Of a DNA stretch of 64,000 bases, positions 13,775 to 55,930 are shown piece after piece. The notes under the pieces were generated by a model. That model searched no databases, had not been told where the DNA came from, and saw only the letters and a list, made by a program, of their open reading frames with translations. The position numbers and the translations under genes are program-made. The stretch's first letter is position 1. Every line of letters starts with the position of its first letter. The stretch comes from Rhodoferax sp. (GTDB lineage: Bacteria; Pseudomonadota; Gammaproteobacteria; Burkholderiales; Burkholderiaceae_C): the NCBI RefSeq assembly GCF_028688795.1, contig NZ_JAQTXM010000001.1, positions 62,001 through 126,000 of the forward strand, written 5' to 3'.

Positions 13775-13829
13775 ACTATTAATTAGATAGCTACTTGCGC
13801 ATGTATCACAAGGGCTAGAAGCCAATTTT
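13775..13829 (+). repeat. dispersed ~55-bp repeat, intergenic copy 1
   Basis: Match to the shared pattern CTAT-N8-ATAGCT, TTGCGC, then CAAGGGCTAGAAGCCAATTT. It fills most of the gap between the receiver gene and the hybrid kinase gene. The 5' half can fold (CTATTAATTAGATAG). Orientation here is given with GCGC before GGGCTAG. Confidence 0.8.
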
Positions 13830-13837
13830 ACTTAAAA

Positions 13838-16800
13838 TTAGTCAATCGCCTGCTGCTCCACACGGTCAATTGCGACCAGCGCTGTGGTGATTGCAGCCGC
13901 CAGGTCTGCCAAAACCAATGCGGGGTCAAGGTCGGCACGCAGCAATCGTTCGGTCTCGGCTGCCAGGCGGCGCACCTCAGGCAAGGCCAGGTTGGCAGCC
14001 ACCCCGGCCAGCTTGTGCGCCAGCGCGGTGGCTGCGGGCTGGTCAGCCTGTGCCAGGCTGGTGTTCATCAGCGCCACCGCGTTGCTGTAAATCGTGGCAA
14101 AACGCTGCAAATAATCCAGGTAAGAAGGCATGTCGCCCCATATTTCCAGACCTGCGGCCATGTCGAGCACGGACACATTGCCCGTGAAAACGCGTCTGGG
14201 CGGCACCGGCTCCATTGCTGGAACTGACTCCGGAGCGAGCATGCTCACAGGAGCCGGCGCACCAGCCGTCAACATTTTGGGTTGGCGTGTCAAGCGCTGG
14301 ATCAGCGCGATGGTGGACGGCACATCAAACGGCTTGCTGATGAAGTGCGTCATGCCCGCGGCCTGGGCGGCATCTTGCTGCGACTTGAACGCCCCGGCGG
14401 TCAAGGCCACGATGGGCAGCTTGGCAAACGCGGGCATTTGACGCAACTGGCGCGTGGCCTCTATGCCATCCATCACCGGCATTTGCACATCCATCAGCAC
14501 CAGATCAATGTCGTTTGGGTGCGCCAGCAACCAGTCCAGCGCCTCCTGGCCGTTGGCCGCGAGCGACACCACGGCGCCTTTTTCATGAAGAATGCGCCGT
14601 GCCACCTCGCAGTTGATCTCGCTGTCGTCAACCACCAGCACGCGTATGCTGGCCAACACCTGGCCGCTAGAGCGGTGCAGGCCAAACTTCATGCCATCGG
14701 TGGCCGCACGCTTGCGCCGGGCTTCGATCAGGGCGTTGTACATGCCGGACGCCGACACCGGTTTTTCAAGCAAGGCATCCACCAGCTCCGTGCCGGCGCG
14801 GTCGGCCATGCTGGTCAGTGAATGCGCGGTGGTCATGATGATCAACGGGCATTTTTCTTGCGGCATGCTGTCGCGAATGGCCCGTGCAGTGGCCAAGCCG
14901 TCCAGGCCCGGCATCTTCCAGTCCAGCACCACCACATCGGGCAATTTGCGCTCGGTGCGGGCCTGCAAATACGACAGCACGGCCTCGCCCGAGTCAAGCG
15001 TGTTGACATGCCAACCCAACCCCTCGGTGATGCCGCTCATGTACTTCAAGGCAATCTGACTGTCGTCGGCAATCAGGGCGTCGATGCGCAACTGGTCGCT
15101 TTCCGACAGCTCAGTATCCGCCAGCTTCTTCAAAGGCACGGTGAACCAAAACTCGCTGCCCTGCCCCACCACACTGTTCAGGCCAATCTCGCCGCCCATC
15201 AGTTGCACCAGTTGGCGGCATATCGTCAGGCCCAGGCCGGTACCGCCAAAACGGCGTGTGGTTGAACTGTCAGCTTGGGTAAAAGGCGCAAACACACTGC
15301 TTTGCAATTCCGGAGCAATGCCAATGCCGCTGTCGCGCACACAAAACCGCAGCACAAGTTCATCATGGCCTGACGAAAGCAGTTCAGTCACCAACTCCAC
15401 CTGACCAACACTGGTGAACTTGATGGCGTTGATGCTCAGGTTCAATAGCACTTGCTCCAGCCGCAAGGCGTCTCCCACCACAGAAAACACGCCTGCCGGT
15501 GGCGGCTGAATCACCAGCTTGATGTCTTTGTCACCCACCGCCACGCCCAAAATCACGGCCAGGTTGTCGATCACATCGGGCAGCCTGAACGGTGCTTGCT
15601 CAATCATCATTTGGCCGGCCTCGATTTTGGAAACGTCCAAAATATCACTGATCAGGCGCAGCAGCATGCGCCCAGATGCCTTGATCTTGCGCACCATGTT
15701 GTTGGCTTCCAGCTCCAGATTGGCTTGCTCCAGCAAGTAGGCCAGCCCCAAAATGGCGTTCAGGGGCGAACGAATTTCATGGCTCATGCTCGACAGAAAA
15801 TCTGACTTCGCAAGGTTGGCCTTTTCTGCCACCGAACGGGCATTTTCCAGCTCGATGTTTTTTTCTTTCAGCTCCAAGTCCAGGCGCTTGCTCTCGGTGA
15901 CATCGCGGGCCGCGGCAAACACACCTTGCAGGGTGCGCTCGCGGTCATAAAAAGTGGTGGCATTGAAAGACACCACGGTTTCCTTGCCGTCGCGGGTACG
16001 CACCGTCAGCTCGTAGTTGCTGACCTTTTTCTCCAGCAACACGCGCTTGATGCTGATCTCGGCCCGATGTGGGTCGGTAAAGTGCGACTTGAAGGGCGCC
16101 CCAATCAGCTCGTCACGGGTACAGCCAGTGAGCGCTTCCATCTGCTTGTTGACGTCTGTGATGATGCCCGCCAAATCAGTGGTCATCAGCGCATCAATGT
16201 TCGACTCGAACAGCGAGCGGGTATAAAACTGGTGGTCGCGCAGACGCTGGGCCAACAGCTTTTGGTCGGCCTCAACCTGTTTGCGCGCGGTGTTGTCGGT
16301 ACCAATCAGCAGGTAGCCGATGATGACGCCTTGCGCATCGCGCAGCGCTGTGACGGACACCACGGCCGGAAACCGACTGCCGTCTTTGCGGATATAGGTC
16401 AGCTCGTAAATGTCTTCAATACCGCGTGATGCCTTGAACACCAACGCCTCAAAGCCCGGCGTGATGGCCGTGTCCAGCTCAACGCTCAAGGCCATGGCGC
16501 GGGCAATCACCTCTTCGGGATCGGAAATGTCGGCTGGCGTGATTTTGTTCATCACATCAGCCGCAGCGTAGCCCAGCATGCGCTCGGCACCCACGTTAAA
16601 AATCTGAATCACCCCCTTGGCATCGGTGGCAATGCTGGAGAAATTAGCACTGTTGAAAATGGCGCTTTGCAGGGCGCCAGCCTTGAGCAGCGCCTCTTCG
16701 GCCTGCTTGCGTGCGGTGTTGTCGGTGCCGATCAGCAAGTAGCCAATGATGCTGTCTTGGGCGTCGCGCAGCGCTGTCACTGACACCACAGCCGGAAACC

Positions 16801-18034
16801 TGCTGCCGTCTTTGCGGATGTAAGTCAGTTCGTAAATGTCTTCAATGCCGCGTGAGGCCTTGAAAACCAGGGCCTCAAAACCGGGGGCAATCGGGGTATC
16901 GAGCTCAAGGCTCAATGTTCTGGCCCGGGCAATGATTTCTTGCGGGTCCGAAATGTCAGCCGGGGTGCGTTGGTTCATCACTTCAAAGGCGGTGTAGCCC
17001 AGCATGCGCTCGGCGCCCACGTTGAAAATCTGGATCACACCCTTGGCATCGGTGGCAATACTGGAGAAGTTGGCACTGTCAAAAATGGCGTTTTGCAAAG
17101 CACCGGCCTTGAGTAACGCATCTTCAGCCTGTTTGCGGGCTGTGTTGTCGGTGCCAATCAGAAAGTACCCAATGATTGTCTTTTCATCATCACGAAGTGC
17201 CGTGACCGACACCACGGCCGGAAACCGGCTGCCGTCCTTGCGGATGTAGGTGAGCTCGTAAATGTCTTCAATGCCGCGTGAGGCTTTGAACACCAGGGCC
17301 TCAAAGCCAGGCGTGATTTCAGAATCAAGCTCCAGGCTCAAGGTCTTGGCGCGAGCGATCAATTCCAGGGGGTCCGAGATGTCGGCTGGCGTGATCTTGT
17401 TCACCACATCAGCCGCCAGACAGCCCAGCATGCGCTCGGCGCCAACGTTGAAAATCTGGATCACACCCTTGGCATCGGTCGCAATGCTGGAGAAGTTGGC
17501 ACTGTCAAAAATGGCTTTTTGCAGCGCACCGGCCTTAATCAAGGCCTCTTCGGCTTGCTTGCGCGCGGTGTTGTCGGTGCCAATCAGCAAGTAACCAATG
17601 ATGCTGTCTTGCGCGTCGCGCAGCGCCGTGACAGATACCACGGCCGGAAACCGGCTGCCGTCTTTGCGGATGTAGGTCAGCTCGTAAATGTCTTCTATGC
17701 CGCGTGAGGCTTTGAACACCAGGGCCTCAAATCCGGGCGTGATGGGCGTTTCAAGCTCAAGGCTCAAGGCCTTGGCGCGAGCGATCAACTCATGTGGGTC
17801 AGAAATATCAGCCGGAGTGATCTTGTTCATCACGTCAGTGGCAGCGTAGCCCAGCATGCGCTCGGCTCCCACGTTAAAAATCTGAATCACACCCTTGGCA
17901 TCGGTGGCAATGCTGGAGAAGTTGGCGCTGTTGAAAATGGCGCTTTGCAAGGCCCGGGTGTTGATCACCGTGTCGTCGGTCTTTTTTACAGACTGAAGGT
18001 CAGCCAATGGTGAGTTGGCATGGGTAGACGTCAT
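13838..18034 (-). CDS. multi-PAS hybrid histidine kinase with two receivers and HPt
   Basis: A 1398-residue cytoplasmic sensor with no evident membrane segment. Order: four near-identical 142-residue PAS+PAC modules (residues 28-169, 170-311, 312-453, 454-595); a fifth, different PAS (about 600-725); a coiled coil; HisKA with SHEIRSPLNAIL; HATPase with VRDSGIGIAPE and GGTGLGLTIC; receiver 1 (ALIADDSQIALK, VVLDWKMPGLDG); receiver 2 (VLVVDDSEINCE, VLMDVQMPVMDG, FISKPFD); and a C-terminal HPt with ALAHKLAGVAANLA. All phosphorelay residues appear present. The signal is unknown. The adjacent stand-alone receiver may be an acceptor. Confidence 0.93.
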   Translation of the reverse strand: MTSTHANSPLADLQSVKKTDDTVINTRALQSAIFNSANFSSIATDAKGVIQIFNVGAERMLGYAATDVMNKITPADISDPHELIARAKALSLELETPITPGFEALVFKASRGIEDIYELTYIRKDGSRFPAVVSVTALRDAQDSIIGYLLIGTDNTARKQAEEALIKAGALQKAIFDSANFSSIATDAKGVIQIFNVGAERMLGCLAADVVNKITPADISDPLELIARAKTLSLELDSEITPGFEALVFKASRGIEDIYELTYIRKDGSRFPAVVSVTALRDDEKTIIGYFLIGTDNTARKQAEDALLKAGALQNAIFDSANFSSIATDAKGVIQIFNVGAERMLGYTAFEVMNQRTPADISDPQEIIARARTLSLELDTPIAPGFEALVFKASRGIEDIYELTYIRKDGSRFPAVVSVTALRDAQDSIIGYLLIGTDNTARKQAEEALLKAGALQSAIFNSANFSSIATDAKGVIQIFNVGAERMLGYAAADVMNKITPADISDPEEVIARAMALSVELDTAITPGFEALVFKASRGIEDIYELTYIRKDGSRFPAVVSVTALRDAQGVIIGYLLIGTDNTARKQVEADQKLLAQRLRDHQFYTRSLFESNIDALMTTDLAGIITDVNKQMEALTGCTRDELIGAPFKSHFTDPHRAEISIKRVLLEKKVSNYELTVRTRDGKETVVSFNATTFYDRERTLQGVFAAARDVTESKRLDLELKEKNIELENARSVAEKANLAKSDFLSSMSHEIRSPLNAILGLAYLLEQANLELEANNMVRKIKASGRMLLRLISDILDVSKIEAGQMMIEQAPFRLPDVIDNLAVILGVAVGDKDIKLVIQPPPAGVFSVVGDALRLEQVLLNLSINAIKFTSVGQVELVTELLSSGHDELVLRFCVRDSGIGIAPELQSSVFAPFTQADSSTTRRFGGTGLGLTICRQLVQLMGGEIGLNSVVGQGSEFWFTVPLKKLADTELSESDQLRIDALIADDSQIALKYMSGITEGLGWHVNTLDSGEAVLSYLQARTERKLPDVVVLDWKMPGLDGLATARAIRDSMPQEKCPLIIMTTAHSLTSMADRAGTELVDALLEKPVSASGMYNALIEARRKRAATDGMKFGLHRSSGQVLASIRVLVVDDSEINCEVARRILHEKGAVVSLAANGQEALDWLLAHPNDIDLVLMDVQMPVMDGIEATRQLRQMPAFAKLPIVALTAGAFKSQQDAAQAAGMTHFISKPFDVPSTIALIQRLTRQPKMLTAGAPAPVSMLAPESVPAMEPVPPRRVFTGNVSVLDMAAGLEIWGDMPSYLDYLQRFATIYSNAVALMNTSLAQADQPAATALAHKLAGVAANLALPEVRRLAAETERLLRADLDPALVLADLAAAITTALVAIDRVEQQAID
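16250..17953 (-). repeat. four tandem 426-bp PAS-coding units
   Basis: The hybrid kinase gene contains four consecutive units of exactly 142 codons, each starting ALQ(S/K/N)AIF and ending RKQ(A/V)E-type. The segment FSSIATDAKGVIQIFNVGAE is identical in all four proteins. Corresponding DNA words (for example GGTGCCAATCAG) recur every 426 bp. Differences between units cluster in a few positions (Y/C after MLG, T/A/F before DV, H/L/Q/E after DP). Confidence 0.95.
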
Positions 18035-18360
18035 GGCGTGCCTTTCAGGCGTTTGCCTCAGGGCGGGTTTGGTAGCATTTTTCGGCGCTGCCCAGTGCGC
18101 CTAGTCCGCCACCGCAGCCAGATCACCAATGTCAACCGCCAGCACAATGGCCGTCACTTGCGCCTTGGCATTACGGAAAAACTTTTTTGCTAGGCTCTCT
18201 TGCAGGCTCTGATTGTCGCCCACCAATTCAGCCGAAGTGAAAACACCCCAAGACGGATGCTGGCGAGCTTGGCAAAGTCGAATCCCGAGCATGACCCGAG
18301 TAGAAAGCCGTGATGCAACCGAAGCTGGTTCACGGCAAAAAAGCCATTACAGGCGCAAGA
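18035..18360. other. intergenic region without a clear gene
   Basis: A 326-bp gap upstream of the hybrid kinase gene. It holds a 63-codon open frame on the minus strand (18101-18292) whose translation, with FRNAKAQVTAIVLAVDIGD, I cannot assign, and no ribosome site. It probably contains the kinase promoter. No repeat or RNA recognised. Confidence 0.4.
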
Positions 18361-18822: not shown

Positions 18823-18924
18823 GTTGGTGCAGTGGCAAGGTAAGTTGCGCGGTGTTGGCTGACCGGGCATTCTGTCAGATGCCTGGCCCGACCTGGCTTG
18901 GGCATTGCGCCCAAGCCACTGAAC

Positions 18925-28267: not shown

Positions 28268-30142
28268 TCAGCCCTCGCCACCAGGCAGCACAGTAGCCGC
28301 ACGCGCCACTTCCTGCAAGCGCAACACGCGCCGTTGCACTTTTCCTGTGGTGGTCATGGGCAAGGCCTCCAGAAACTCGATTTCCTTTGGGTACTCGTAC
28401 GGGGCCAGTTTGCCTTTGACGTGAGTTTGCAACTGCTCAATAAGTTCAGCATCAAATTGGACTCTATCGCCCGTATATATTGCGCGAGCAGCTACAAAAT
28501 CAGGAGCCAACACCACATACGCCTTAACGACGGCACCACGCGCGGTGTCTGGCTTGGGCACCACCGCCACGTTGGCCACGGCCGGGTGTTTGATCAGACA
28601 GTTCTCAATCTCGCCAGGGCCAATGCGGTAGCCCGCAGCTTTGAAAACGTCGTCGCTACGGCCCTGGTACCACAAGTAGCCATCGGCATCGCGACTGGCC
28701 AGGTCACCCGTGCGGCACCAGTCACCCGTGAATTTGGCCTGTGTGGAAGCCTCGTTTTTCCAGTAGCCCAAAAAGAAAATCGGGTCCGGCTGGCCATGCA
28801 CGTCAAAACGGTTCACGGCCACGTCGCCCACCTCGCCCGCTGCGCACTCAACGCCAGCGTCATCAATCACAGCCAGCCGGTGGCCGGGGTAGCCCAGGCC
28901 CATGCTGCCGGGTTTGGGTGGCCACAGGGCGGCGCAATTGCCCACGATGTAGTTGATCTCGGTCTGGCCAAACATTTCGTTCACCGCCACGCCCAACTGG
29001 CTCTGGCAGTAGTCAAACACCGCATCGCCCACGGCCTCGCCGGCACTCATGATGCCTAGCAGCTTCAAGCCGAATTGCTGCTGCACCGTCTCGCCTTGCG
29101 CGCCGGGGTAGGCTTTCATCATGGCCTTGAGCGCGGTGGGGAACAAAAAAGTGTGCGTCACCGCGCAGTCGCGCATCAACTCCAGCGCGGTTTGCGGGCT
29201 GAAGCGGCCATTGAACGCGACGATGGGGCGGCCAAAAAACAAAGTTGGCAGCAGCGCGTCCATCAGCCCACCGGTCCAGGCCCAGTCGGCTGGGCTCCAG
29301 AACACGGCTTGTGAGCCGGTGGGCCGTTGTGCTGAGCTGGCCAGCTGGCACAAGGCCGCGGTCGGGTTGGGCCAGATGGTCACATCAAAACCAAACCAGT
29401 TCTGGCTGCAGATAAAACCGGTCAGATTGCCAATCAGGGCCTGGTGGGGAATCAGCGCCCCTTTGGGGTTGCCGGTGGTACCACTGGTGTAAATCAGAAT
29501 TGCCGGAGCATCGGCGCGGGTGTTGACCAAAGCAAACTCGTCACTGGCGGCGGCGAGCGCCTGTGCCCAAGACACATCGGCCAGCGCAGCGTTGTCAGCC
29601 GTCAAGCCTACGCCCACCGTTTGACGCAAATGCGGGCAATGGCCGCGCACCGCTTGCAGGTTGCCCAGGGTTTGCGCGTCGCCAATGGCCACCACCGATT
29701 CGCTGTCCTGCAAGCGGAATTCCAGCGCCTCGGGCCCAAACAATTGCGACAGCGGCATGGCCACCGCGCCGATTTGCAACACCGCCATGTAGGCCACCGC
29801 CACCTCAAAACACTGCGGCAGCACGATGGCCACGCGGTCGCCCTGGCGCACACCCATGCCAAGCAGCACGTTGCATAAACGGTTGGCCTCATGCTGCAAT
29901 TGAAAATATGAATAAAAAGTGGCCTTAGCCCCCGTTGTATATGCGTGAACAGCTATATTTTCAGAAGCATCAGGCAAGGCCGCCCAGCGCGCACAACAGG
30001 CCTGCGCCATGTTGAAATACTCTGGCACTTGCCACGCAAAGCCGCTGTGCAACTGGGCATAGCTTGGGGGAAAATCCCAAATGGGTGATGTGCTGGCGGG
30101 GGTTGACTTGGCTGCTGTGTCGCTGGATTGACTGACGGGCAT
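28268..30142 (-). CDS. acyl-CoA synthetase (AMP-forming)
   Basis: A 624-residue adenylate-forming enzyme, somewhat longer than usual. Core motifs: IYTSGTTGNPKGALIP (A3), NEMFGQTEINY (A5), WYQGRSDDVFKAAGYRIGPG (A7/A8) and TTTGKVQRRVL with the catalytic Lys (A10). It most resembles acetyl/medium-chain (ACSM-like) synthetases; the acyl substrate is not certain. Two copies of the dispersed repeat lie in frame, at residues about 58-79 and 546-562. Its start codon is only 14 bp from that of the divergent hydrolase. Confidence 0.9.
   Translation of the reverse strand: MPVSQSSDTAAKSTPASTSPIWDFPPSYAQLHSGFAWQVPEYFNMAQACCARWAALPDASENIAVHAYTTGAKATFYSYFQLQHEANRLCNVLLGMGVRQGDRVAIVLPQCFEVAVAYMAVLQIGAVAMPLSQLFGPEALEFRLQDSESVVAIGDAQTLGNLQAVRGHCPHLRQTVGVGLTADNAALADVSWAQALAAASDEFALVNTRADAPAILIYTSGTTGNPKGALIPHQALIGNLTGFICSQNWFGFDVTIWPNPTAALCQLASSAQRPTGSQAVFWSPADWAWTGGLMDALLPTLFFGRPIVAFNGRFSPQTALELMRDCAVTHTFLFPTALKAMMKAYPGAQGETVQQQFGLKLLGIMSAGEAVGDAVFDYCQSQLGVAVNEMFGQTEINYIVGNCAALWPPKPGSMGLGYPGHRLAVIDDAGVECAAGEVGDVAVNRFDVHGQPDPIFFLGYWKNEASTQAKFTGDWCRTGDLASRDADGYLWYQGRSDDVFKAAGYRIGPGEIENCLIKHPAVANVAVVPKPDTARGAVVKAYVVLAPDFVAARAIYTGDRVQFDAELIEQLQTHVKGKLAPYEYPKEIEFLEALPMTTTGKVQRRVLRLQEVARAATVLPGGEG
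28457..28506 (-). repeat. dispersed ~55-bp repeat inside the acyl-CoA synthetase gene (3' copy)
   Basis: Minus-strand reading shows GGCTCCTGATTTTGTAGCTG then CTCGCGCAATATATACGGGC and GATAGAG, matching the shared pattern. It encodes about residues 546-562 (DFVAARAIYTGDRVQF), where related synthetases, as I remember them, have a segment some nine residues shorter. Read as an in-frame insertion. Confidence 0.6.
29908..29970 (-). repeat. dispersed ~55-bp repeat inside the acyl-CoA synthetase gene (5' copy)
   Basis: Minus-strand reading shows GCTTCTGAAAATATAGCTG, TTCACGCATATACAACG, then GGGGCTAAGGCCACTTTTT. It encodes ENIAVHAYTTGAKATF at about residues 61-76 and replaces the usual strand-turn-strand before the AN(R)L helix without an obvious change of length. 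Confidence 0.6.
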
Positions 30143-32569: not shown

Positions 32570-33674
32570 ATGGAAGCAGAACGCATCAACGCCATCGCCA
32601 CACAACTCAGCAGCTTGTCTGCCCGGACCCTCGATTTACGGGGGTATCTTTGACTACGATGCCAAATTTGAGCGCCTGAGAACCGTCAACGCCAGCCTGG
32701 AAGACCCCGCGGTCTGGAACGACCCCAAGCGCGCCCAAGAGTTGGGCCGCGAGAAAAAGGCGCTGGACGGCGTGGTGGTCACCATCAGCGACCTGGAGCG
32801 CGACCTCTCTGACAACTCCGAGTTGTTCGAGATGAGCAAGGAAGACAATGACGAAACCGGCCTGATCACCATCGAGGCCGAAGCGGCCAAGCTGGAAGAG
32901 ATCGTCAAGGGCCTTGAATTCCGCCGCATGTTCAACAACCCGGCTGACCCGCTGAACTGTTTTGTCGACATTCAATCTGGCGCCGGTGGCACCGAAGCCT
33001 GCGACTGGGCCAGCATGCTGCTGCGCCAATACTTACGCTACTGCGAGCGCAAGGGTTTCAAGACCGAGATCGAAGACGAAACCCCGGGCGACACGGCCGG
33101 CATCAAGGGCGCGTCGTTCAAGGTTGAAGGCGAGTACGCGTTTGGCTTGTTGCGCACCGAGACTGGCGTGCACCGCCTGGTGCGCAAGAGTCCGTTTGAC
33201 TCGTCAGGTGGCCGCCACACCAGCTTTGCCAGCGTGTTTGTTTACCCTGAGATTGATGACTCGATCGAGATCAATATCAACCCCAGCGACGTGCGCACCG
33301 ACACCTACCGCGCCAGTGGCGCCGGCGGCCAGCACATCAATAAAACCGACTCTGCGGTTCGCCTGACCCACTTGCCCACCGGCATCGTGGTGCAGTGTCA
33401 AGATGGCCGCAGCCAGCACGGCAACCGCGACATCGCCTGGAAACGCCTGCGCTCCAAGCTATACGACTTTGAGTTGCGCAAGCAGCAAGAAGAACAGCAA
33501 AAGCTTGAAGACGGCAAGACCGACGTCGGCTGGGGCCACCAGATTCGCTCTTACGTGCTGGACAACAGCCGCATCAAGGATTTGCGCACCAATTACGAAA
33601 CCTCCGCCACGCAAAAGGTGCTGGACGGTGACCTGGACCAATTCATCGAAGCCTCCTTGAAGCAGGGCGTGTGA
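32570..33674 (+). CDS. prfB: peptide chain release factor 2, programmed +1 frameshift
   Basis: RF2 recognises UGA and UAA stop codons and triggers peptide release. The gene starts at ATG 32570. 27 codons later it meets in-frame TGA at 32651-32653 and continues in the +1 frame with GAC at 32652, giving 367 residues. Diagnostic motifs in the second frame: [13 protein letters not shown] (codon recognition) and [18 protein letters not shown] with the catalytic GGQ. Not a mutation: the shift is the known autoregulatory device of prfB. Confidence 0.97.
32639..32654 (+). promoter_or_regulatory. prfB recoding site
   Basis: CGGGGGTATCTTTGAC: a Shine-Dalgarno-like GGGGG stands just before the slippery CTT TGA C, the classical layout for +1 slippage by tRNA-Leu when RF2 is scarce. 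Confidence 0.95.
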
Positions 33675-34369
33675 TGACGCGCGTCAACCTGGCTGGGCCG
33701 GTGGAAGCTCTGATTTTCGACATGGACGGCACCATGATCGACTCCATGGGATTTCATGCGCAAAGCTGGCAGCTTTTTGCAGAGCAACACGGCCTGAGCA
33801 TCGATCTGGACGACCTGATGCGCCGCACCACCGGGCGCACTGGCGCCGAGTGCATGCGCGAGCTGTTTCAGAGGGACATCAGCAACGACGAAGCCTGGAT
33901 GCTGATTGCGGAAAAAGAGCGACTCTACCGCGACATGTTTGGCCCGGTATTTGCCGAGGTGGCTGGCTTCAAGGCGTTTTACGCGCAGGCCTTGACGCTT
34001 GGCTTAACGCTTGGCGTAGGCACAGCGGGCGACAAACACAACATCGCGTTCGCCATGGGTCACCTGGCACTGCCGACGCCGCCCAAGGCCATTGTGGGCG
34101 GTGACGAAGGGTTGCCCGGAAAACCCGAACCCGCTATATTTTTAGAAGTTGCTAGCCGAATGAATACAAGGGCTAGCGGCTGTATTGTCTTTGAAGATGC
34201 ACCCTTTGGCATCGAAGCGGCGCGCCGCGCCGGCATGCAGGCTGTGGCCATTTGCAGCTCCCATACGCCCGCGCAACTCGCGGGCCCCCACGTGATCGCC
34301 ACGGTGCGCGATTACCATGAACTCTTAAATTCGAATTTCCTGGAGACTCTTCATGTTGCAACTTCGTGA
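33674..34369 (+). CDS. HAD-superfamily phosphatase, beta-phosphoglucomutase-like
   Basis: A 231-residue HAD hydrolase with cap domain (subfamily IA). Motif I is LIFDMDGTMIDSM (nucleophile Asp), motif III/IV region GKPEPAIFLEVASRM, then CIVFEDAPFGIEAARRAGM. Likely acts on a sugar phosphate. ATG 33674 overlaps the prfB stop (TGATG); GTG 33671 is an alternative. A dispersed-repeat copy encodes the segment AIFLEVASRMNTRASGCIV while the protein keeps the normal spacing between motifs. The 3' end overlaps pepN by 17 bp. Confidence 0.9.
   Translation: MTRVNLAGPVEALIFDMDGTMIDSMGFHAQSWQLFAEQHGLSIDLDDLMRRTTGRTGAECMRELFQRDISNDEAWMLIAEKERLYRDMFGPVFAEVAGFKAFYAQALTLGLTLGVGTAGDKHNIAFAMGHLALPTPPKAIVGGDEGLPGKPEPAIFLEVASRMNTRASGCIVFEDAPFGIEAARRAGMQAVAICSSHTPAQLAGPHVIATVRDYHELLNSNFLETLHVATS
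34132..34190 (+). repeat. dispersed ~55-bp repeat inside the HAD phosphatase gene
   Basis: GCTATATTTTTAGAAGTTGC, TAGCCGAATGAATACAAGG and GCTAGCGGC match the shared pattern in the same order. The frame stays open and the distance between HAD motifs is the usual one, so this copy seems to have replaced rather than lengthened the coding sequence. Confidence 0.6.
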
Positions 34370-37058
34370 CGCAAGCGGCCCAGCGACGGTGATTCGCCGC
34401 GCTGACTATGCCGCCCCAGCCTACTGGATCGACACCGTTGACCTGAGCTTTGACCTGGACCCGGCCAAAACCCGTGTCCTGAACAAAATGACACTGCGCC
34501 GCAACCCGGACGTGGCGGCACAAGCCCTGCGCCTGGACGGTGACGAACTGAACCTGGCGCGAGTGCTGGTCAACGGCGCAGGCACATCCTTCAAAATGGA
34601 CGCTGGTCAACTGGTGCTGGAAAACCTGCCACTTGAAGGCAGTTTTGATCTGGAAATCTTCACCACCTGCGCGCCGGTCAAAAACACCAAGTTGATGGGC
34701 CTCTACGTCAGCAACGACTCTTTCTTCACCCAGTGCGAGGCTGAAGGGTTCCGGCGCATCACCTTCTTCATGGACCGCCCCGATGTCATGGCCAACTTTA
34801 CCGTGACGCTGCGCGCAGACAAAGAAAAATACCCGGTTTTGCTGAGCAATGGCAACCTGACGGACAGTGGCCCACTGGACGACGGCCGTCACTTTGCCAC
34901 CTGGGTTGACCCACACAGGAAGCCCTGCTACCTGTTCGCCCTGGTAGCCGGCAAGCTGGTGGCGCGTGAGCAGCGCATCACCTCACGCGGGGGGAAAGAC
35001 CACCTGCTGCAGGTGTATGTGCGCCCCGGCGATATGGACAAAACCGAGCACGCCATGAATTCGCTGATCAATTCGGTCATTTGGGACGAAGCCCGCTTTG
35101 GCCTGGCGCTTGACCTGGAGCGCTTCATGATTGTGGCCACCAGCGACTTCAACATGGGCGCCATGGAAAACAAGGGCCTGAACATCTTCAACACCAAGTA
35201 CGTGCTGGCCAACCAGGCCACCGCCACCGATGTCGACTTTGCCAACATCGAGTCTGTGGTGGGCCACGAATATTTTCACAACTGGACCGGCAACCGCATC
35301 ACCTGCCGCGACTGGTTCCAACTGTCATTAAAAGAAGGCCTGACCGTGTTTCGCGACCAGGAATTCAGCATGGATTTGTGTGCTGACGCATCTGCTCGCG
35401 CTGTGAAACGCATCGAAGACGTGCGTGTGTTGCGCACTGCCCAGTTCCCCGAAGATGACGGCCCCATGGCACACCCGGTGCGCCCTGACAGCTACATCGA
35501 GATCAACAACTTCTACACCGTCACCATTTACGAAAAAGGCGCCGAGGTGGTGCGCATGATGCAGACCCTGGTTGGAAGATCAGGGTTTGCCAAGGGCATG
35601 ACGCTGTACTTTGCGCGCCACGATGGCAGCGCGGTGACCTGCGACGACTTCGCGCAAGCTATTGCCGATGCCAACCCCGACTCAGCCCTGACCCGCCTGC
35701 TGCAGCAATTCAAGCGCTGGTACAGCCAGGCTGGCACGCCCCGCTTGGCGTCCAGCGCGCACTATGACGCGGCTGCGCAAACCTACACCTTGAACTTTTC
35801 CCAAAGCTGCCCCGCCACGCCGGGTCAGGACAGCAAAGATCCGTTTGTCATACCGGTCAATCTGGGGCTGATCGGCGCAAGCAGTGGCGCCACCCTGCCC
35901 TTGCAACTGCAAGGCGCGCCGGCCAGCGCTGACAACAGCCACTTGTTTGTCATGACCCAGGCGCAAGAGTCCATCACCTTTGAAGGCGTGCAGGAAGAAC
36001 CCGTGCCGTCCATTCTGCGGGGTTTTAGCGCCCCGGTGATCGTGGACTTTGCCTACACCGACGCCCAATTGCTGACACTGCTGGCGAATGACCCCGACCC
36101 GTTCAACCGGTGGGAAGCCGGGCAACGCCTGGCTTTGCGAAGCGCTATCTCTTTAATAGCTGGTGACGCAAGAAATACAAGCGCTAGAGGCCTAAATGAT
36201 GCATATATTTCAGCCATGCGCTCAGTGCTTCGCCACGCCACGCTGGACGCCGCTTTCAAGGAAATGGTGCTCACCTTACCCGCAGAAAGCTACATCGCCG
36301 ACCAGCTTGACGAGGTTGACCCGCAGCGCATCCACGCCGTGCGGGAAGCCATGCGCGAACAGCTCGCCACTGAACTCGCCGCCGACTGGCAATGGGCCTT
36401 TGAGGCGCACAGCCAAAACGGCGGTTATTCGCCTGACACGTTGTCAAGCGGTCGCCGCGCCTTGGCAGGGCTGGCCTTGTCCATGCTTTGTCTGGCTGCC
36501 CGCCACACGAATGACGCGGTCTGGCCCGGCAAAGCCTACCAGTGCTTCAAGGACGCCAACAACATGACCGACCGCGCCAACGCCCTGAGCGCCTTGGTGC
36601 AAAGCGGCCATACGCTGGCCAAGCCGGCGCTGGAGCGCTTTCATAGCCTGTTCAAGTACGAAGACCTGGTGCTGGACAAATGGTTTGCCCTGCAAGCCGG
36701 CTGCACTGACCGGGGCGGCAACGTGCTGCCTGCGGTGCGCCAGTTGCTCAAGCACGCCGATTTTTCACTGCGCAACCCGAACCGCGCCCGCAGCGTAATC
36801 TTCAGCTACTGCAGCGCCAACCCTGGCGCGTTTCACCGTGCCGATGGAGCCGGTTACGTGTTCTGGACCGAGCATGTGCTGGCGCTGGATGCCATCAACC
36901 CGCAAGTGGCTGCCCGCCTGGCGCGAGCCCTGGACCGCTGGAGGAAACTGGCCGAACCGTATCGGCATGCTGCCCGCGAGGCCTTGGCCCGCGTCGCAGC
37001 CAAGTCTGATCTAAGCAACGATGTGCGCGAAGTAGTCAGCCGCGCCCTAGCCGATTGA
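34353..37058 (+). CDS. pepN: aminopeptidase N
   Basis: A 901-residue M1-family zinc metallopeptidase of the gammaproteobacterial/betaproteobacterial PepN type (about 870-900 residues). GAMEN motif in MGAMENKGLN (about residues 268-277); zinc site HEYFHNWTGNRIT with the second Glu in SLKEGLTVFRDQ. It removes N-terminal residues from peptides in the cytoplasm. GGAG stands before the ATG. A dispersed repeat lies in the C-terminal region, at about residues 597-617. Confidence 0.96.
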   Translation: MLQLRDASGPATVIRRADYAAPAYWIDTVDLSFDLDPAKTRVLNKMTLRRNPDVAAQALRLDGDELNLARVLVNGAGTSFKMDAGQLVLENLPLEGSFDLEIFTTCAPVKNTKLMGLYVSNDSFFTQCEAEGFRRITFFMDRPDVMANFTVTLRADKEKYPVLLSNGNLTDSGPLDDGRHFATWVDPHRKPCYLFALVAGKLVAREQRITSRGGKDHLLQVYVRPGDMDKTEHAMNSLINSVIWDEARFGLALDLERFMIVATSDFNMGAMENKGLNIFNTKYVLANQATATDVDFANIESVVGHEYFHNWTGNRITCRDWFQLSLKEGLTVFRDQEFSMDLCADASARAVKRIEDVRVLRTAQFPEDDGPMAHPVRPDSYIEINNFYTVTIYEKGAEVVRMMQTLVGRSGFAKGMTLYFARHDGSAVTCDDFAQAIADANPDSALTRLLQQFKRWYSQAGTPRLASSAHYDAAAQTYTLNFSQSCPATPGQDSKDPFVIPVNLGLIGASSGATLPLQLQGAPASADNSHLFVMTQAQESITFEGVQEEPVPSILRGFSAPVIVDFAYTDAQLLTLLANDPDPFNRWEAGQRLALRSAISLIAGDARNTSARGLNDAYISAMRSVLRHATLDAAFKEMVLTLPAESYIADQLDEVDPQRIHAVREAMREQLATELAADWQWAFEAHSQNGGYSPDTLSSGRRALAGLALSMLCLAARHTNDAVWPGKAYQCFKDANNMTDRANALSALVQSGHTLAKPALERFHSLFKYEDLVLDKWFALQAGCTDRGGNVLPAVRQLLKHADFSLRNPNRARSVIFSYCSANPGAFHRADGAGYVFWTEHVLALDAINPQVAARLARALDRWRKLAEPYRHAAREALARVAAKSDLSNDVREVVSRALAD
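36143..36200 (+). repeat. dispersed ~55-bp repeat inside pepN
   Basis: GCTATCTCTTTAATAGCTGG, TGACGCAAGAAATACAAGC and GCTAGAGGCCTAAAT match the shared pattern very well. It encodes SAISLIAGDARNTSARGLN between two conserved helices of PepN (after RWEAGQRLALR). The frame is kept. Confidence 0.8.
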
Positions 37059-48983: not shown

Positions 48984-49000
48984 CGGTAAAGTCACCCCCC

Positions 49001-49489: not shown

Positions 49490-49555
49490 TTTGACGCGGC
49501 CAGGCATTGGCACGGCGGCGTACCAAGCAAGGCATGCGCCCACCAACTAGAAATT

Positions 49556-49617
49556 TATGTGTTTTAGACCTCTAGCCCTTATAAAATAAGCGCAGCTAGC
49601 TATTTATTAGATAGCAT
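49556..49617 (-). repeat. dispersed ~55-bp repeat, intergenic copy 2
   Basis: The clearest full copy. Minus-strand reading: GCTATCTAATAAATAGC (perfect 5-bp hairpin with 7-nt loop), TAGCTGCGCTTATTTTAT, then AAGGGCTAGAGGTC. It ends 6 bp from the stop codon of the SEC-C gene. Confidence 0.85.
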
Positions 49618-49622
49618 TTAAA

Positions 49623-50459: not shown

Positions 50460-50548
50460 GGCACAGGTGTAAAAGAGTGAGAATAGTCATATTCTGCCTT
50501 GAGCGAAGCAGCTAAGCTTATTCAACGAATGTCAAGGGTTCAAACAAA

Positions 50549-51580
50549 ATGACCAAAGCAACCACCTTTTCTTTACCATTGCTCCTTTCCCTGGCCCTGG
50601 CGGCATGCGGCGGCGGCGGTGGGGGCGACAGCGCAGTAGTCGCGCCAGGCACGGTGTTGCCCCCAACCACCGTGACCATTCCTACGGCCACCTACGCGGC
50701 GGGCTCTGCAGAGCTTGGCGGCTACACGGTGTTGCAGCAAGCCCGTGTGCTGTGCGGCTTTGGTGCGCTACGGCAAAACACGCGGCTTGATGCGGCTGCG
50801 CTAAACCACGCGCGTTACCTCACCAGCATTTCCAGCGCCAGCGGCACGTCGGTGTTGTCGCACTATGAGGACATCCCGACTGACCCCTACTACACCGGGT
50901 ATTTCCCATGGGATCGCACCACGGCCACAGGCTACGGTGACCAGGTGGCTGAAATTCTGGAAGCCACAGTATGGGACTACGACACCGGCAACCCGCCGGT
51001 GTTTCCCGCCTTGGCGCAGCGCGGCGCAGACTCCATGCGCAGCCTGCTTAACACCGTTTACCACCTGACTGGTGCGATGTACGCAGGCGCAGACGTGGGC
51101 TTCGGGGCAGATGTGCAAACCATCGCCACCGGCACCACCAGCCGGCGCGAAGAATACCGCTTTGGCTCCCTCAATGGCTACCAAACCACCACCATCAATC
51201 TGGGCAGCGGCAACGTCGCTACCTACCCGTGCCAGGGCAGCACCGACATTCCTTCCGCGTTTGTGCCCGCCAATGAAAGCCCCAACCCGTTTCCTGCCAT
51301 GACCAGCACCAGCCAAACGGTTGGCCCACCGATTTACCTGAAAGTGGATGCCGGGCAAGTGCTTCGGGTGACCTCCAGCAGCGTGAGCCAGAACGGCGTG
51401 AGTGTGCCGACGACGGTGCTTACGGCGGCCAACGACCCGAATCGGGACCTTGGCGCCAACGAGGTGTTTGTCATCCCCACCATCGCCCTGAGCAGCAACA
51501 CCAACTACCAGGTCAGCTTGTCGGGCACCATCAGTGGCGCGCCTTTTAGCCGCAGCTTCAGCATGAGCACCGGGCAGTGA
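50549..51580 (+). CDS. CAP/SCP-domain-like lipoprotein
   Basis: A 343-residue protein with lipobox LALAACGG (acylated Cys at about residue 20), a Gly-rich linker, and from about 60 to 200 a domain resembling the bacterial CAP/SCP fold (RVLCGFGALRQNTRLDAAAL, NHARYL). A C-terminal beta-rich part (about 240-343) ends SFSMSTGQ. Membrane-attached at the outer face. The CAP assignment is by pattern only. Confidence 0.65.
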   Translation: MTKATTFSLPLLLSLALAACGGGGGGDSAVVAPGTVLPPTTVTIPTATYAAGSAELGGYTVLQQARVLCGFGALRQNTRLDAAALNHARYLTSISSASGTSVLSHYEDIPTDPYYTGYFPWDRTTATGYGDQVAEILEATVWDYDTGNPPVFPALAQRGADSMRSLLNTVYHLTGAMYAGADVGFGADVQTIATGTTSRREEYRFGSLNGYQTTTINLGSGNVATYPCQGSTDIPSAFVPANESPNPFPAMTSTSQTVGPPIYLKVDAGQVLRVTSSSVSQNGVSVPTTVLTAANDPNRDLGANEVFVIPTIALSSNTNYQVSLSGTISGAPFSRSFSMSTGQ

Positions 51581-51587
51581 CTTGCGG

Positions 51588-53612
51588 CTATTCGTTGCGT
51601 GACAGCAAACGCACCTGGGCGCGCGTCGAGGCCATGAACCCTGGCAACGTCTGACCTGCGCCGTCACTGACCGTAAAGACGGCCATGGTGCTCACCAACT
51701 CATCGGCCTGACTTTGCAAGCTGCTGGCAGCTGCCGCCATTTGCTCCACCAGAGCCGCATTTTGCTGAGTCACCTGATCCATCTGAGTCACGGCGTCACC
51801 GACCTGCGCCACACCCAGAGCCTGCTCGCTGCTGGCCGCGCTGATCTCGCCCATGAGGTCAGTCACACGTTTGATGGCGCTCACCAACGCCACCATGGTG
51901 CTGCCGGCTTGATCCACCAGCGCCGACCCCTGATTGACCTGTTCCTCGCTGGCGCCAATGAGTCGTTTGATCTCTTTGGCGGCCTCGGCCGAACGCCCAG
52001 CCAGGCTTCGGACTTCACTGGCAACCACCGCAAAACCCCGGCCCTGCTCCCCGGCACGAGCGGCTTCCACAGCGGCATTGAGGGCCAGAATATTGGTCTG
52101 AAAGGCGATGCCGTCAATGACACCAATGATGTCGGATATCTTGCGTGACGAATCGTTGATGCCCTTCATGGTGTTGATCACCCGGCCCATGACCTCGCCA
52201 CCCTGAACCGCAACCGAAGAGGCATTCATGGCCAATTGATTGGCTTGGCGTGCGCTGTCTGCATTTTGTTTCACGGTGGCGCTGAGTTCTTCCATGGAGG
52301 CTGCCGTTTGCTCTAGGGCGCTGGCCTGGCTTTCGGTGCGGGCCGAGAGGTCGTGGTTGCCTTGTGCAATTTCTGCACTGGCGGTGGCCACGCCATGCGA
52401 GCCCTGGCGCACGGCCATAACCATGCGTGCGAGGTTTTCCTGCATGTGCTTGAGTTGCGCCATCACACTGCTGGTGTCGTTGTTGGCCACTTGAATGGGG
52501 TCATCAAGGTGGCCTGCAGCTACCCGCACGGCAATGGCAGCGGCGGCGGCGGGCTCCCCCCCCAGCGGGCGCAGCACCAGTCGGGTGATCAGAAAATTCA
52601 ACCCCAAGACCACCACGATGACACTCAAAAGCCCCAGTGCGGCGGCGACATAACGCAGGTTTGTCACCCCAGCCAGGGCTTTGTCGTCCGGCACCGTGGC
52701 AACAAACGACCAAGGGGCCTTCACGGCACCGACATGCACCGGCACATAAATACTGGTCACCGGGGTTTGCAGCTGATCGCTGAAATAGTGCGCCTCGTAC
52801 TTTTGACCAGCCTTGATCGCGCCTTTGGCAGCCACCGCCAACTCGGAGGCACCGATGTCCTTACCGACATTTTTTTCATCAGCATCACCCACATATAGGC
52901 CTCCATGGGAGATCAAAGAGGCAAAGCCGGTCTCGTATGGGCGAATCTTGCTGACCACGTTCTGAAAACCATCCAACGGCAAGTCGATACCCACAACGCC
53001 CAAAAATTTCCCATTGACCGTGATCGGTACCACCACCGATGTCATCAGCACCTCCTTGCCACCGACTTTGTAAGCGTAAGGCTCAATCAATGTTTCCTCA
53101 CCTGACTGTTTAGCCAGCAGGTAATAGTCGCCCGCGCCTGGCTTTTCATAGTCCACCAGGGCTTCGACATCAATACTGCCGGCACCCCGGTTCCAGTACG
53201 GAATAAACCGACCAGTGGCATCGTGGGCTGGTTTGCCGACGAATTCGGCATCCTTGCCGTCGAACGCATTGGGCTCCCAACAGGTCCAGACCCCGAGAAA
53301 ATTGGGGTCACCTTCCAGCACACTTTTCAGCAGGGCATCCGTAGCGGCGCGGCTGGTGAGCTCAACTGACTTGATACCTCGCAACGTATTGGCCATGGTG
53401 CGCGCAGCGTCCAGTGCCACCTCAAGGCGTCCCGAAGCCTGACCGGCATGGGTCAAAGCAAGTTGTTCTGTGTATTGAAGGATGACTTCTTTTTGCAGCG
53501 TGGTGGCCTGCTGGGTCAGCAACCCGATGGTCAACGCAAATGCGACAAGAACAACGGTTGCTGTCAGCGTCAGAACCTTCATTCGAAGCGTAGTGGGTGG
53601 CTTGGCTTGCAT
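51588..53612 (-). CDS. methyl-accepting chemotaxis protein with dCache sensor
   Basis: A 674-residue chemoreceptor. TM1 at residues 11-33, periplasmic double-Cache sensor (about 40-300, with [13 protein letters not shown] and [20 protein letters not shown]-like features), TM2 at about 305-330, HAMP, and a long signalling hairpin with [20 protein letters not shown] and [17 protein letters not shown]. dCache sensors commonly bind amino acids or organic acids. ATG 53612 chosen; the longer open frame has no membrane-protein start. Confidence 0.92.
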
Positions 53613-53814
53613 CTTTCGACTTTCAAAGGTAAAAAATATTGATCGCAAAATTCGCGCCGGGCGGATGGCACGTTTCAACGAACACACGCGACAGGTAGCA
53701 CTATATCGGTGCATTTCCACAAACGCATGGGTTAACCGGTCATGCACCGGCAGCCGGGGTTCTGCAGCATGGTATTTTTTTGCTAACCAACCCGAAGGGC
53801 AGCGTGATGGCACT

Positions 53815-53982
53815 GCGACTGAACTGATGCAGTTGGTGGCCTTGCGCATTGAGCGACATCCGGTCAAGGATTGGGATGAACATCTGGCCGCTGCCTATTG
53901 CGCCAGTGACAAAGTGATCACGCCTCTTTTGGGCAACGGGTATCGTTTGGTCACACGTGCCAAGACCCATGCGTTGGCGGCA
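53815..53982 (+). pseudogene. possible transposase remnant
   Basis: An open frame in the gap between the chemoreceptor and the ThDP enzyme encodes [20 protein letters not shown] and LLGNGYRLVTRAKTHALAA. These look like the central part of a DDE transposase (Asp near [10 protein letters not shown]; the LVTRAKSNA-type strand), but without start, ends or inverted repeats. It is probably a fragment; the assignment is by memory of the motif. Confidence 0.35.
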
Positions 53983-53995
53983 TGGGTTTCTGCAA

Positions 53996-55678
53996 TCACT
54001 TGTTCATAATGAACGCCAGAGCCGCGTCGCGAATGCCATCCAACGTGCTGGTCGGGGTGATGGCTTGCGCGTCCAGCAGGCAATGCAGGATGGCTGGTTT
54101 GCCGCTGGCCCGGGCGCGTGCCAGCGCCGGGGCAAACTCTGCGGTGGTGGTGACGCGTTCCCCATGCCCGCCAAACACCTGGGCGTAACCACAGAAGTCG
54201 GGGTTTTTAAGCTGGGTGGCGCTGACACGTCCCGGGTAATGGCGCTCCTGATGCATGCGGATGGTGCCAAACATGGCGTTGTCCAGCAGCACCACAATGA
54301 TCGGCAGACCGTATTGCACGGCAGTGGCAAATTCCTGGCCGTGCATCATGAAGTCGCCGTCGCCAGCAAACACCACCACCTCACGTTGCGGCCACAGGCG
54401 CTTGGCCCCCACACCAGCGGGCAGGCCGTAACCCATGGAGCCGCTGGTGGGGGCCAACTGGCTGGCGTAAGTGGTGAACGGCCAGAAGCGGTGCACCCAG
54501 GTGGCAAAGTTACCGGCACCGTTGCAAAAAATGGTGTCTGCAGGCAACACCTCACGCAGGTGTTGCATCACCTCGCCCATTTGCAGCGGGCCGGGAATGC
54601 GGATCGGGGCCGGGTCGCTCCAGCGCAGGTAGTCTTCGCGCGCCGCGAGGGTCTCGGCCGTCCAGGCTACCGGGGCCGTGGGGTGCAACGTGGACACGGC
54701 TTGGGCGAAGGCTTGCGGTGTGGCGTGAATCGACTGGGCGGCGCGGTACAGCTTGCCCAACTCATCTGCATCGGCATGCACATGCACCAACGCTTGCTGC
54801 GGCGTGGGAATACCCAGCAGTTCGTACCCCTGCGACGGCACCTCGGACAGGCGCCCGCCGACCAGCAACACCAGGTCAGACTGGCGGATGCGCGCCAGCA
54901 AACGCGGGTTGGCACCCAGCCCCAGGTCACCCGCATAAGACGTGTGCTTGGCGCTGAACAACATCTGCCGACGAAACGAGCAATACACCGGCAGTGAAAA
55001 GGCTTCGGCAAAAGCCGTGAACTGCTGCACCGCCGCCTCTGACCAGCGGCTGCCCCCCAGGATGACGACCGGGCGCTGCGCTTTGGCCAAACGGTCTTGC
55101 AGCTCAGCCAGTTGTGCGGCACCGGGATGGGTTTCGGTCACCGCATACGGCAGGGCATCGGCCACACTTGCCGCCTCGGTCAGCATGTCTTCCGACAGGG
55201 CAATCACCACCGGGCCGGGTCGCCCTGAGGTGGCCACATGGAAGGCCCGCGACACCAATTCGGGCAGGCGTTTGGCGTCGTCAACCTGCACCACCCACTT
55301 GGCCATGGTGCCAAATACCGCGCTGTAGTCCAGTTCCTGAAAGGCCTCCCGGCCCAGCGCGCCGCGCGCCACCTGGCCGACAAACAGCAGCAGCGGAGTT
55401 GAATCCTGATGCGCAATGTGCACACCCGCTGTGGCGTTGGTGGCGCCGGGGCCACGCGTCACAAAGCAGATGCCGGGTCGCCCGGTGAGCTTGCCTTGGG
55501 CTTCGGCCATCATGGCTGCGCCGCCTTCTTGGCGGCACACGGAGACCGCAATCGACGCTTCGTGCAGCGCATCCAGCACGGCCAGAAAGCTCTCGCCTGG
55601 GACGCAAAACAACTGCTCTACGCCGTGAACAATGAGTTGGTCAACCAGGATCTGGCCGCCGGTACGAGAAAGTGTCAT
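53996..55678 (-). CDS. thiamine-diphosphate-dependent decarboxylase/synthase
   Basis: A 560-residue ThDP enzyme of the acetolactate synthase/AruI-like group. N-terminal FCVPGESFLAVLDAL carries the catalytic Glu; CFVTRGPGATNATAGVH; C-terminal GSMGYGLPAGVGAK and the cofactor motif FAGDGDFMMHGQEF ... LLDNAMFGTIRMHQE. In this context (FAD oxidases, semialdehyde dehydrogenase, amino-acid ABC transporter) decarboxylation of a 2-oxo acid such as 5-guanidino-2-oxopentanoate is more likely than acetolactate synthesis. ATG 55678 chosen. Confidence 0.85.
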   Translation of the reverse strand: MTLSRTGGQILVDQLIVHGVEQLFCVPGESFLAVLDALHEASIAVSVCRQEGGAAMMAEAQGKLTGRPGICFVTRGPGATNATAGVHIAHQDSTPLLLFVGQVARGALGREAFQELDYSAVFGTMAKWVVQVDDAKRLPELVSRAFHVATSGRPGPVVIALSEDMLTEAASVADALPYAVTETHPGAAQLAELQDRLAKAQRPVVILGGSRWSEAAVQQFTAFAEAFSLPVYCSFRRQMLFSAKHTSYAGDLGLGANPRLLARIRQSDLVLLVGGRLSEVPSQGYELLGIPTPQQALVHVHADADELGKLYRAAQSIHATPQAFAQAVSTLHPTAPVAWTAETLAAREDYLRWSDPAPIRIPGPLQMGEVMQHLREVLPADTIFCNGAGNFATWVHRFWPFTTYASQLAPTSGSMGYGLPAGVGAKRLWPQREVVVFAGDGDFMMHGQEFATAVQYGLPIIVVLLDNAMFGTIRMHQERHYPGRVSATQLKNPDFCGYAQVFGGHGERVTTTAEFAPALARARASGKPAILHCLLDAQAITPTSTLDGIRDAALAFIMNK

Positions 55679-55877
55679 GGGTAGGTTTCCAGAAAATGAA
55701 GAGAAGAAGTGACGTTCAGCGCAGTGCCGTACAGACGGCGTGGATAGAGCTTGTCGAGTTAACAGGCGTGATCGCATGGATGGAAAAGAGGCAAATATCC
55801 CCGATTCCGGCGCTTTTGTATAGTGACTTTTTGGAAAGACTTCATGCAAATATAGACAGAACTTAATTAACAAAAAA

Positions 55878-55930
55878 AGCCATCATCCGCCTCTAGCCCA
55901 CATATTCATTGCGCTATAGCCCTGAAATAG
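55878..55930 (-). repeat. dispersed ~55-bp repeat, intergenic copy 3
   Basis: Minus-strand reading: GCTATTTCAGGGCTATAGCG, CAATGAATATGTGG, GCTAGAGGCGGAT. It lies in the 293-bp divergent gap between the ThDP enzyme and the LysR pseudogene; the rest of the gap shows no gene and presumably holds their promoters. Confidence 0.75.

Follow-up and report, generated by a model that had tools for sequence, protein, structure and literature searches.

The question raised by this stretch of Rhodoferax sp. DNA (64,000 nucleotides, positions 62,001 to 126,000 of contig NZ_JAQTXM010000001.1 in assembly GCF_028688795.1, hereafter the window) is how a sequence of about 54 bp, repeated along it, comes to lie inside protein-coding genes as well as between them. 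A sequence-only reading had taken seven segments for copies of a dispersed element, copied or inserted. Comparison with related genomes speaks for a different origin: coding sites are mostly without change in length, and no recent duplicates were found among 77 copies sampled from the same genome. Judged from these alignments, the motif in genes mostly replaces native sequence instead of inserting into it. The copies may be sites of one double-stranded DNA motif of about 54 bp serving as an uptake signal like the DNA uptake sequence (DUS) or the uptake signal sequence (USS), an interpretation that stands about an even chance of being right.

The window is part of a genome of 4.99 Mb in 98 contigs (G000). 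A profile of 53 columns was built from copies differing from AAGGGCTAGAGGCC at no more than one position and then iterated over 463,761 bp, made up of the window, contig C97 and positions 1-160,000 of contig C11. At E<=0.005 it finds 80 non-overlapping copies, one per 5.8 kb. A chance-level copy number, which the sequence-only reading had allowed for, is far exceeded, since the best profile match on the reversed sequence of the same DNA has an E of 6.8. Genome-wide, AAGGGCTAGAGGCC with at most one mismatch gives 154 matches and the backwards pattern 1. Extrapolation from 80 copies in 464 kb gives about 860 per genome, and this genome probably holds several hundred copies. Near-full-length matches selected from several Rhodoferax genomes and trimmed to 54 bp, 59 in all, align without gaps as GCTATnnATTTnATAGCTnCTTGCGCTTnTTnnACAAGGGCTAGAGGCnnATTT.

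Within the window the motif and its host genes are placed as follows.

13776..13829, + strand: motif copy, intergenic (profile 52.5 bits, E 1.7e-14)
28268..30142, - strand: acyl-CoA synthetase gene with two copies (AMP-binding 7.4e-58, AMP-binding_C 1.8e-19)
28453..28506, - strand: motif copy in the acyl-CoA synthetase gene, sense (34.4 bits, E 7.4e-9)
29916..29966, - strand: motif copy in the N-terminal part of the acyl-CoA synthetase gene (29.9 bits, E 2e-7)
33671..34369, + strand: HAD phosphatase gene (HAD_2 3.6e-20)
34134..34180, + strand: weak motif-like stretch in the HAD phosphatase gene (7.8 bits, E 1.6, not significant alone)
34353..37058, + strand: pepN, peptidase M1 gene with one copy (Peptidase_M1 2.8e-47, DUF3458_C 6.8e-116)
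36145..36197, + strand: motif copy in pepN (aminopeptidase N), sense, read as AISLIAGDARNTSARGL (37.7 bits, E 7e-10)
49565..49614, - strand: motif copy between convergent genes (43.7 bits, E 9.5e-12)
55886..55916, - strand: degenerate motif-like stretch (8.6 bits, E 0.89, not significant alone)

All seven segments first noted are thus present near the places given for them. Five are significant by the profile iterated on the window and 400 kb of the same genome, although its seeds include 13776-13829, 36145-36197 and 49565-49614 and later rounds train on their own finds, so that the E-values flatter; the stretches at 34134 and 55886 are not significant on their own. Up to E 10 the profile adds no further places in the window, the extra matches being opposite-strand overlaps of the same seven. 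The block order and spacing described as common to all does not extend to these two stretches: in that at 55.9 kb the interval from first to second block (ATAGC to GCGC; by eye) is about 6-7 nt too short, and that at 34.1 kb, which overlies HAD-phosphatase sequence, matches the motif only in part (by eye) and is possibly an incipient or decayed site. Likewise, three of the four copies counted inside genes are strong, two in the acyl-CoA synthetase gene and one in pepN, while the fourth, in the HAD gene, is weak. The copy at 13776-13829 ends about 10 bp beyond the 3' end of a 1398-aa PAS/histidine-kinase gene (13838-18034, - strand; Pfam). At 28453-28506 the net length difference is 0 against the five relatives listed of nine aligned, and the acyl-CoA synthetase is about 10-12 aa longer there than distant solved homologs. 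At 29916-29966 it is again 0 against the five relatives listed of ten aligned, with no gap around the stretch against solved 5u2a; this copy lies upstream of the start picked by the codon-usage script that served for gene calls in place of a published gene finder, yet within the stretch homologous to solved enzymes.

Host proteins at 18 of the 28 copies lying wholly within predicted genes were compared with those of the element-rich genomes G010, G031 and G033 and the element-poor genomes G090 and G092 (5 and 9 model matches), giving 53 scorable site-genome comparisons, 23 poor and 30 rich. Against the element-free orthologs 17 of 23 comparisons are gapless, 20 of 23 lie within 3 aa net, and the motif score is 0 in all 23; among the rich genomes 27 of 30 are gapless and 29 of 30 score above 10 bits. 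Of the 13 sites for which a poor ortholog was available, 8 show no gap in any poor ortholog scored, and at 10 at least one such ortholog is gapless. The exceptions include C97:57598, in the linker of a UvrA-like protein (26 aa longer in G092), C97:15284 (3 and 1 aa shorter in the poor orthologs) and C11:32376 (one balanced gap in G092). Orthologs lacking the element, proposed at the outset as a means of defining its ends and any duplication, are therefore mostly gapless and not shorter; the original remark that no target duplication is visible holds.

Hosts supported by Pfam include PurK, NIF3, HemD, a photolyase, a CDP-alcohol phosphatidyltransferase, a LytTR regulator, DUF1415 and proteins of the urate oxidase family, an epimerase family and the DNA polymerase III alpha type. 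At the PurK site G000 reads AYEENMPLALAEKAVAATKKIAKE and G090 reads AYAGNMAPALANQAVQAAKNIAAE. Solved PepN (4qhp) has a gap of 1 aa at the site, and solved PurK (10bm and 4izo) and the NIF3 homolog YbgI (1nmo) have none. We take these structures to come from Neisseria, Burkholderia and E. coli, respectively. The element peptide is absent from the site in each, a protein-level comparison of three hosts that bears on the possibility, raised beforehand, of the same bases in unrelated orders. The photolyase is about 6 aa longer than its best solved match, and in pepN the loop differs from the query by -5 to +8 aa across 80 named loci. Other hosts include what we take, by eye, to be a UvrA-like gene and what is presumably an apolipoprotein N-acyltransferase gene. 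The former (C97:54505-60921, 2138 aa) carries three copies, two sense and one antisense.

A cost in rare codons is seen at the coding copies. Relative to the rest of the genes, the 28 coding sites are enriched 42-fold in ATA, 19-fold in CTA and 17-fold in AGA. Isoleucine is encoded by ATA in 26 of 45 cases (2.8% outside), leucine by CTA or TTA in 30 of 48 (3.8% outside) and arginine by AGA or AGG in 11 of 21 (3.9% outside).

Closely related genomes were used to follow single copies. In the trio G004, G061 and G079, whose aligned segments are mostly 92-96% identical (about 94%), 41 of 62 copies have an alignable ortholog; the other 21 were left out since their flanks do not align. These gave 67 directed comparisons, many of them reciprocal, of which 59 are gapless and 8 have gaps of 1-6 nt; none has a gap above 6 nt. 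Mismatches in non-coding copies amount to 7.3% in conserved columns, 11.7% in flanks and 14.8% in loose columns (24 gapless directed comparisons). In coding copies, with coding status judged by open frame, the values are 8.8%, 11.0% and 18.4% (34 comparisons). We read the lower mismatch in conserved columns as a sign that the motif is maintained at the level of the DNA.

At the pepN site the motif score is graded. It is 0 in nine of nine poor genomes (<=15 model matches), and among 21 rich genomes it exceeds 10 bits in 15, lies between 2.8 and 9.5 in five and is 0 in one (G004). Net length change is 0 in all 21 rich Rhodoferax loci (G000 included), and in the nine poor loci it is -2 aa in seven and 0 in two. 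Poor genomes G081 and G092 retain look-alike remnants, which suggests decay of the motif.

Of the 80 copies, 28 lie wholly inside predicted genes (15 sense, 13 antisense), 11 cross a gene edge and 41 are intergenic. With about 90% coding DNA, chance would put about 72 copies in genes, so coding DNA is depleted in copies, not favoured. The suggestion that the mechanism is tolerated by coding DNA thus stands as far as tolerance goes, and the supposed abundance in genes does not. For 51 other copies genes were called on both sides: 19 are in convergent spacers and 3 in divergent ones, and between co-directional genes there are 20 in sense and 9 in antisense. Of the 44.1 kb of intergenic DNA in this count (spacers >40 bp), 12.1 kb is divergent spacer. 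In 39 of the 51 the preceding gene reads in the same direction as the copy, and 27 of these copies start no more than 25 nt after its stop codon or overlap it by at most 14 nt. Known uptake sequences show a similar preference for convergent over divergent spacers. Copy-free gaps were considered as islands, and the case is weak, most of the 15 gaps above 10 kb being without lower GC. Two long copy-free stretches, C97:142007-157216 and C11:92081-105392, have a GC of about 0.546-0.547 and 0.557-0.558, compared with about 0.585, and are possibly acquired DNA.

The motif also varies between genomes in the manner of dialects. The consensus is CGCTT..AAGGGCTA in G000, CCCTT..AAGGGCTA in the trio, CGCTT..AAGCGCTA in G010 and G033, and ACGGGGGCTA in G032/G072 and G062/G076 (5 copies per group). 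At column 38 of the profile, C stands in 14 of 21 G010 and 11 of 18 G033 matches at ortholog loci, and G in 10 of 10 G031 matches at such loci and in 70 of 83 G000 copies. By sequence model, 41 of 89 Rhodoferax genomes have at least 64 matches, 14 have 15-63 and 34 have at most 12, these counts being lower bounds and many of the genomes incomplete. The earlier mention of similar sequences in Comamonadaceae proved sound, and the motif is found across the family: GCTAGAGGCCWAWWW occurs exactly in 55 of 250 Comamonadaceae genomes and in 38 of 126 genera. The 60 relatives searched for a 14-base word, one mismatch allowed, include 24 genomes of other families, each with 0-2 matches.

Rare codons, both orientations, dialects and lack of length change together indicate that the motif behaves as a DNA-level signal, one that appears from these comparisons to grow in place and to decay in some lineages. 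Presence on both strands, growth in place, gene ends, dialects and absence from many congeners make an uptake signal the best reading, at roughly even chances. Coding copies would then arise mostly by nucleotide substitution in place and be kept by a force acting on the DNA. A putative receptor linked to type IV pili would favour motif-bearing DNA, better-matching alleles would more often enter the cell and recombine, and the motif would build up wherever the encoded protein tolerates it, as DUS do in Neisseriaceae and USS in Pasteurellaceae. We infer decay in element-free lineages, a DNA-uptake receptor as the factor and uptake drive as the force. Such a system of the Comamonadaceae would be independent of DUS and USS, with a 54-bp composite read along about five helical turns and dialects that set exchange partners; for this fuller picture the chances for and against are evenly balanced. 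It resembles DUS and USS in its hundreds of copies, in both orientations, in genes and at gene ends, and in its family-wide range with dialects. According to the available portion of PMC4212676, Verminephrobacter eiseniae, Acidovorax temperans and A. facilis, all Comamonadaceae, transform naturally, uptake in V. eiseniae requires type IV pili, and competition by salmon DNA in excess is only about 10-fold in that species, from which its authors infer selective uptake. That text, as far as available, proposes no motif, and the word "motif" is absent from it.

Several observations weigh against an uptake signal. ComEC occurs in 83 of the 89 Rhodoferax genomes, among them poor ones (many genomes being incomplete); GspH-type pilins in 79 of 89 and ComEA-like matches in 70 of 89, the latter all below the curated cut-off, do not separate rich from poor genomes by eye. 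A composite of about 54 bp is far longer than DUS (10-12 bp) or the USS core; taken together, the cores of the two systems span 9-12 bp. The 15 sense and 13 antisense copies show no orientation excess, although the sample is small and the property does not define uptake sequences; for those, the accessible part of PMC2346458 reports one orientation as commoner in reading frame. Evenness of copy spacing is weak (P 0.10 on C97, 0.016 on C11). C97:88351 is 12 aa shorter in G090 and C97:10442 is 24 aa shorter in G092, which partly fits insertion. Some gapless sites (C11:42238 and C97:10442 in G090, C97:125195 in G010) have low similarity across the site, and those comparisons therefore say little. 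At the HAD N-terminus, G010 and G060, both with a motif copy there, are 54-57 nt longer than G089, G090 and G072; G004, G061 and G079 have a same-length sequence resembling a decayed copy, and G085 has unrelated extra sequence. This alignment makes the HAD N-terminus the best candidate for a true insertion. Lastly, copies resemble one another more than column shuffles do: the variance of pair identity is 17.9 vs 10.3, pairs with at least 40 identities number 156 vs 37.7 expected, and the top ten pairs outdo every one of 500 shuffles. Part of this excess comes from unequal match quality overall, and subfamilies or old copying among the copies are possible contributors.

In the main rival reading the motif is bound by a chromosome-structuring or regulatory protein (of the nucleoid, replication or recombination), having been gained by substitution and held by ordinary purifying selection. 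The in-place evidence fits it equally well. Copies are scarce between divergent genes and enriched at gene ends, which also suits it. In the 51 non-coding copies, two mixed blocks separate successive AT-rich tracts. About 22 bp lie between the first two tracts, and the third continues into an AT-rich tail, an arrangement that might reflect bending or wrapping. It would, however, be unusual for a core structural site to occur as hundreds of long, rare-codon sites that are missing from many congeners (the 34 of 89 with at most 12 matches). KOPS (FtsK orienting polar sequences) and Chi are strand-polar; here the strand split on two contigs is 27/20 and 16/12, with no strong polarity. A protein site of this kind is a serious possibility that we regard as somewhat unlikely.

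A mobile element resembling repetitive extragenic palindromic sequences (REP) or miniature inverted-repeat transposable elements (MITE), spread by a Y1 transposase of the REP-associated tyrosine transposase (RAYT) type and tolerated as in-frame insertions, is improbable. A RAYT gene is matched in 78 of 89 Rhodoferax genomes, most of them closely and some only distantly (e.g. G073, G103), and in 12 of 30 loci a copy (E<0.01) lies just past the RAYT stop codon; the HAD length difference and the excess similarity among copies also fit. The adjacent copy may be one event, because RAYT is one gene inherited mostly in single copy, and such copies leave the gapless coding sites unexplained. Close RAYT matches occur in the element-poor genomes G089, G090, G092, G006 and G012 as well, and RAYT as driver was rejected, being present in rich and poor genomes alike. 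Near-identical copies are also absent: among the 77 from G000 the closest pair agrees at 45 of 53 positions, when column shuffles average 43.3 and 37 of 300 reach 45, and nothing clear emerged from the flanks. The 67 trio comparisons, too, show no gap longer than 6 nt. The small hairpin proposed for one end of the element finds no argument in its favour, since the palindromic parts pair no better than shuffled ones (75.7% of cells vs 74.8%) and their covariation score is 0.125 in both. A MITE or other in-frame inserted element was likewise set aside: empty sites shorter by the length of the element are unseen at 10 or more of 13 coding sites and do occur at the HAD N-terminus of G010/G060. As a separate observation, a RAYT-type gene at L010:1453-2270 (C97:160.7 kb) lies in several relatives within a long inverted pair, AATTGGGGTCAGA..CCAATT, distinct from the motif. 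The neighbour of the Y1 transposase gene is presumably gltB-like, to go by its first residues.

Single-step overwriting in place, by recombination or gene conversion between copies or from a single-stranded DNA or RNA template, would keep length and could go with dialects within genomes and with some excess similarity among copies. It is very doubtful: restricted to the loosest 12 columns, the top pairs do not stand out, 303 of 500 shuffles reaching them, though the variance is still slightly high; differences in the close trio are scattered; and scores at pepN are graded. An RNA-level element, such as a terminator or 3'-end stabiliser with coding copies as by-products, would suit the 39 of 51 non-coding copies behind same-direction genes and the 27 near or over stop codons, but is highly improbable given the near-equal sense and antisense coding copies, pairing no better than in shuffles, and an Rfam search of the window that, at E up to 1, matched one tRNA and nothing else.

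Parts of the motif are already in print. The available text of PMC5217627 (2017) lists spaced pairs, GCTTAT(N)5AAGCG in Acidovorax ebreus (114 copies) and ATAGCT(N)22CAAAAG in Polaromonas naphthalenivorans (125 copies), which as we read them fall on columns 25-30/36-40 and 13-18/41-46 of the present alignment, allowing dialect letters. There the pairs are described as lying near genes, often between convergent ones, and are given as statistics without explanation; R. ferrireducens T118 has the most pairs (140) among the genomes scanned, and identity with the present motif is not stated in that text. The present account differs from what is available of that one in the full motif, a proposed function, in-place evolution and dialects. 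REP/RAYT systems are likewise short, close to gene 3' ends, partly palindromic and accompanied by a RAYT gene; here most coding sites are in place and gapless, covariation is lacking and no recent duplicates were found. Rickettsia palindromic elements are also repeats in reading frame within genes, but they are insertions, whereas length is kept at most sites here. HIP1 of cyanobacteria is a genome-wide, coding-tolerant motif too, a perfect palindrome of 8 bp compared with about 54 bp. BRE, as described in the accessible part of PMC3110155, is 75-91 bp long, 69% GC and often tandem in Bordetella, with 4 copies in R. ferrireducens; compared by description and not by sequence, it shares with the present motif the occurrence in Comamonadaceae and some copies in genes. 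In the literature searched, the full motif, its in-place origin, codon cost, dialects and a link to selective uptake were not found, nor was work on uptake sequences in Comamonadaceae. A search with the motif letters gave human-gene work only, by title, and a term look-up in the available part of PMC3733652 found none of six Comamonadaceae or Burkholderiales names.

Copies were also seen on plasmids and in a Salmonella island.

L299:1495-1544: motif copy in a named record, the DUF1010 gene cassette of plasmid R751 (37.7 bits)
L301:1491-1539: motif copy in a named record, the dfrA12-aadA2 interval in a Salmonella island (40.5 bits)

With one copy as query, BLAST found matches in 1,809 plasmid records, and in 51 of these the match covered at least 80% of its length; among 15 matches listed, 14 had the same 8-51 match and 13 were annotated DUF1010. 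The sequence matches suggest that the DUF1010 cassette is of Comamonadaceae-like origin. A copy on a plasmid of Comamonas sp. C11 (L300:2001-2051, 36 bits) lies between a sigma-54 regulator and an IS1071-family transposase. Since a class 1 integron gene cassette bears a copy, the motif may mark the provenance of genes.

Whatever its function, a 54-bp motif that overwrites coding DNA with length kept and with the rarest codons would represent an unusual DNA-level force on proteins. To our knowledge, uptake signals are established in two bacterial families only. If the uptake interpretation is true, the motif would be a third and much longer signal, in a common freshwater and soil family, and a candidate for the unexplained uptake selectivity of Verminephrobacter and Acidovorax. 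Natural dialects would make the coevolution of receptor and motif testable, and hundreds of protein-coding stretches would have been reshaped in each rich genome. The motif may thus be the tag by which these bacteria recognise DNA of their own family on uptake.

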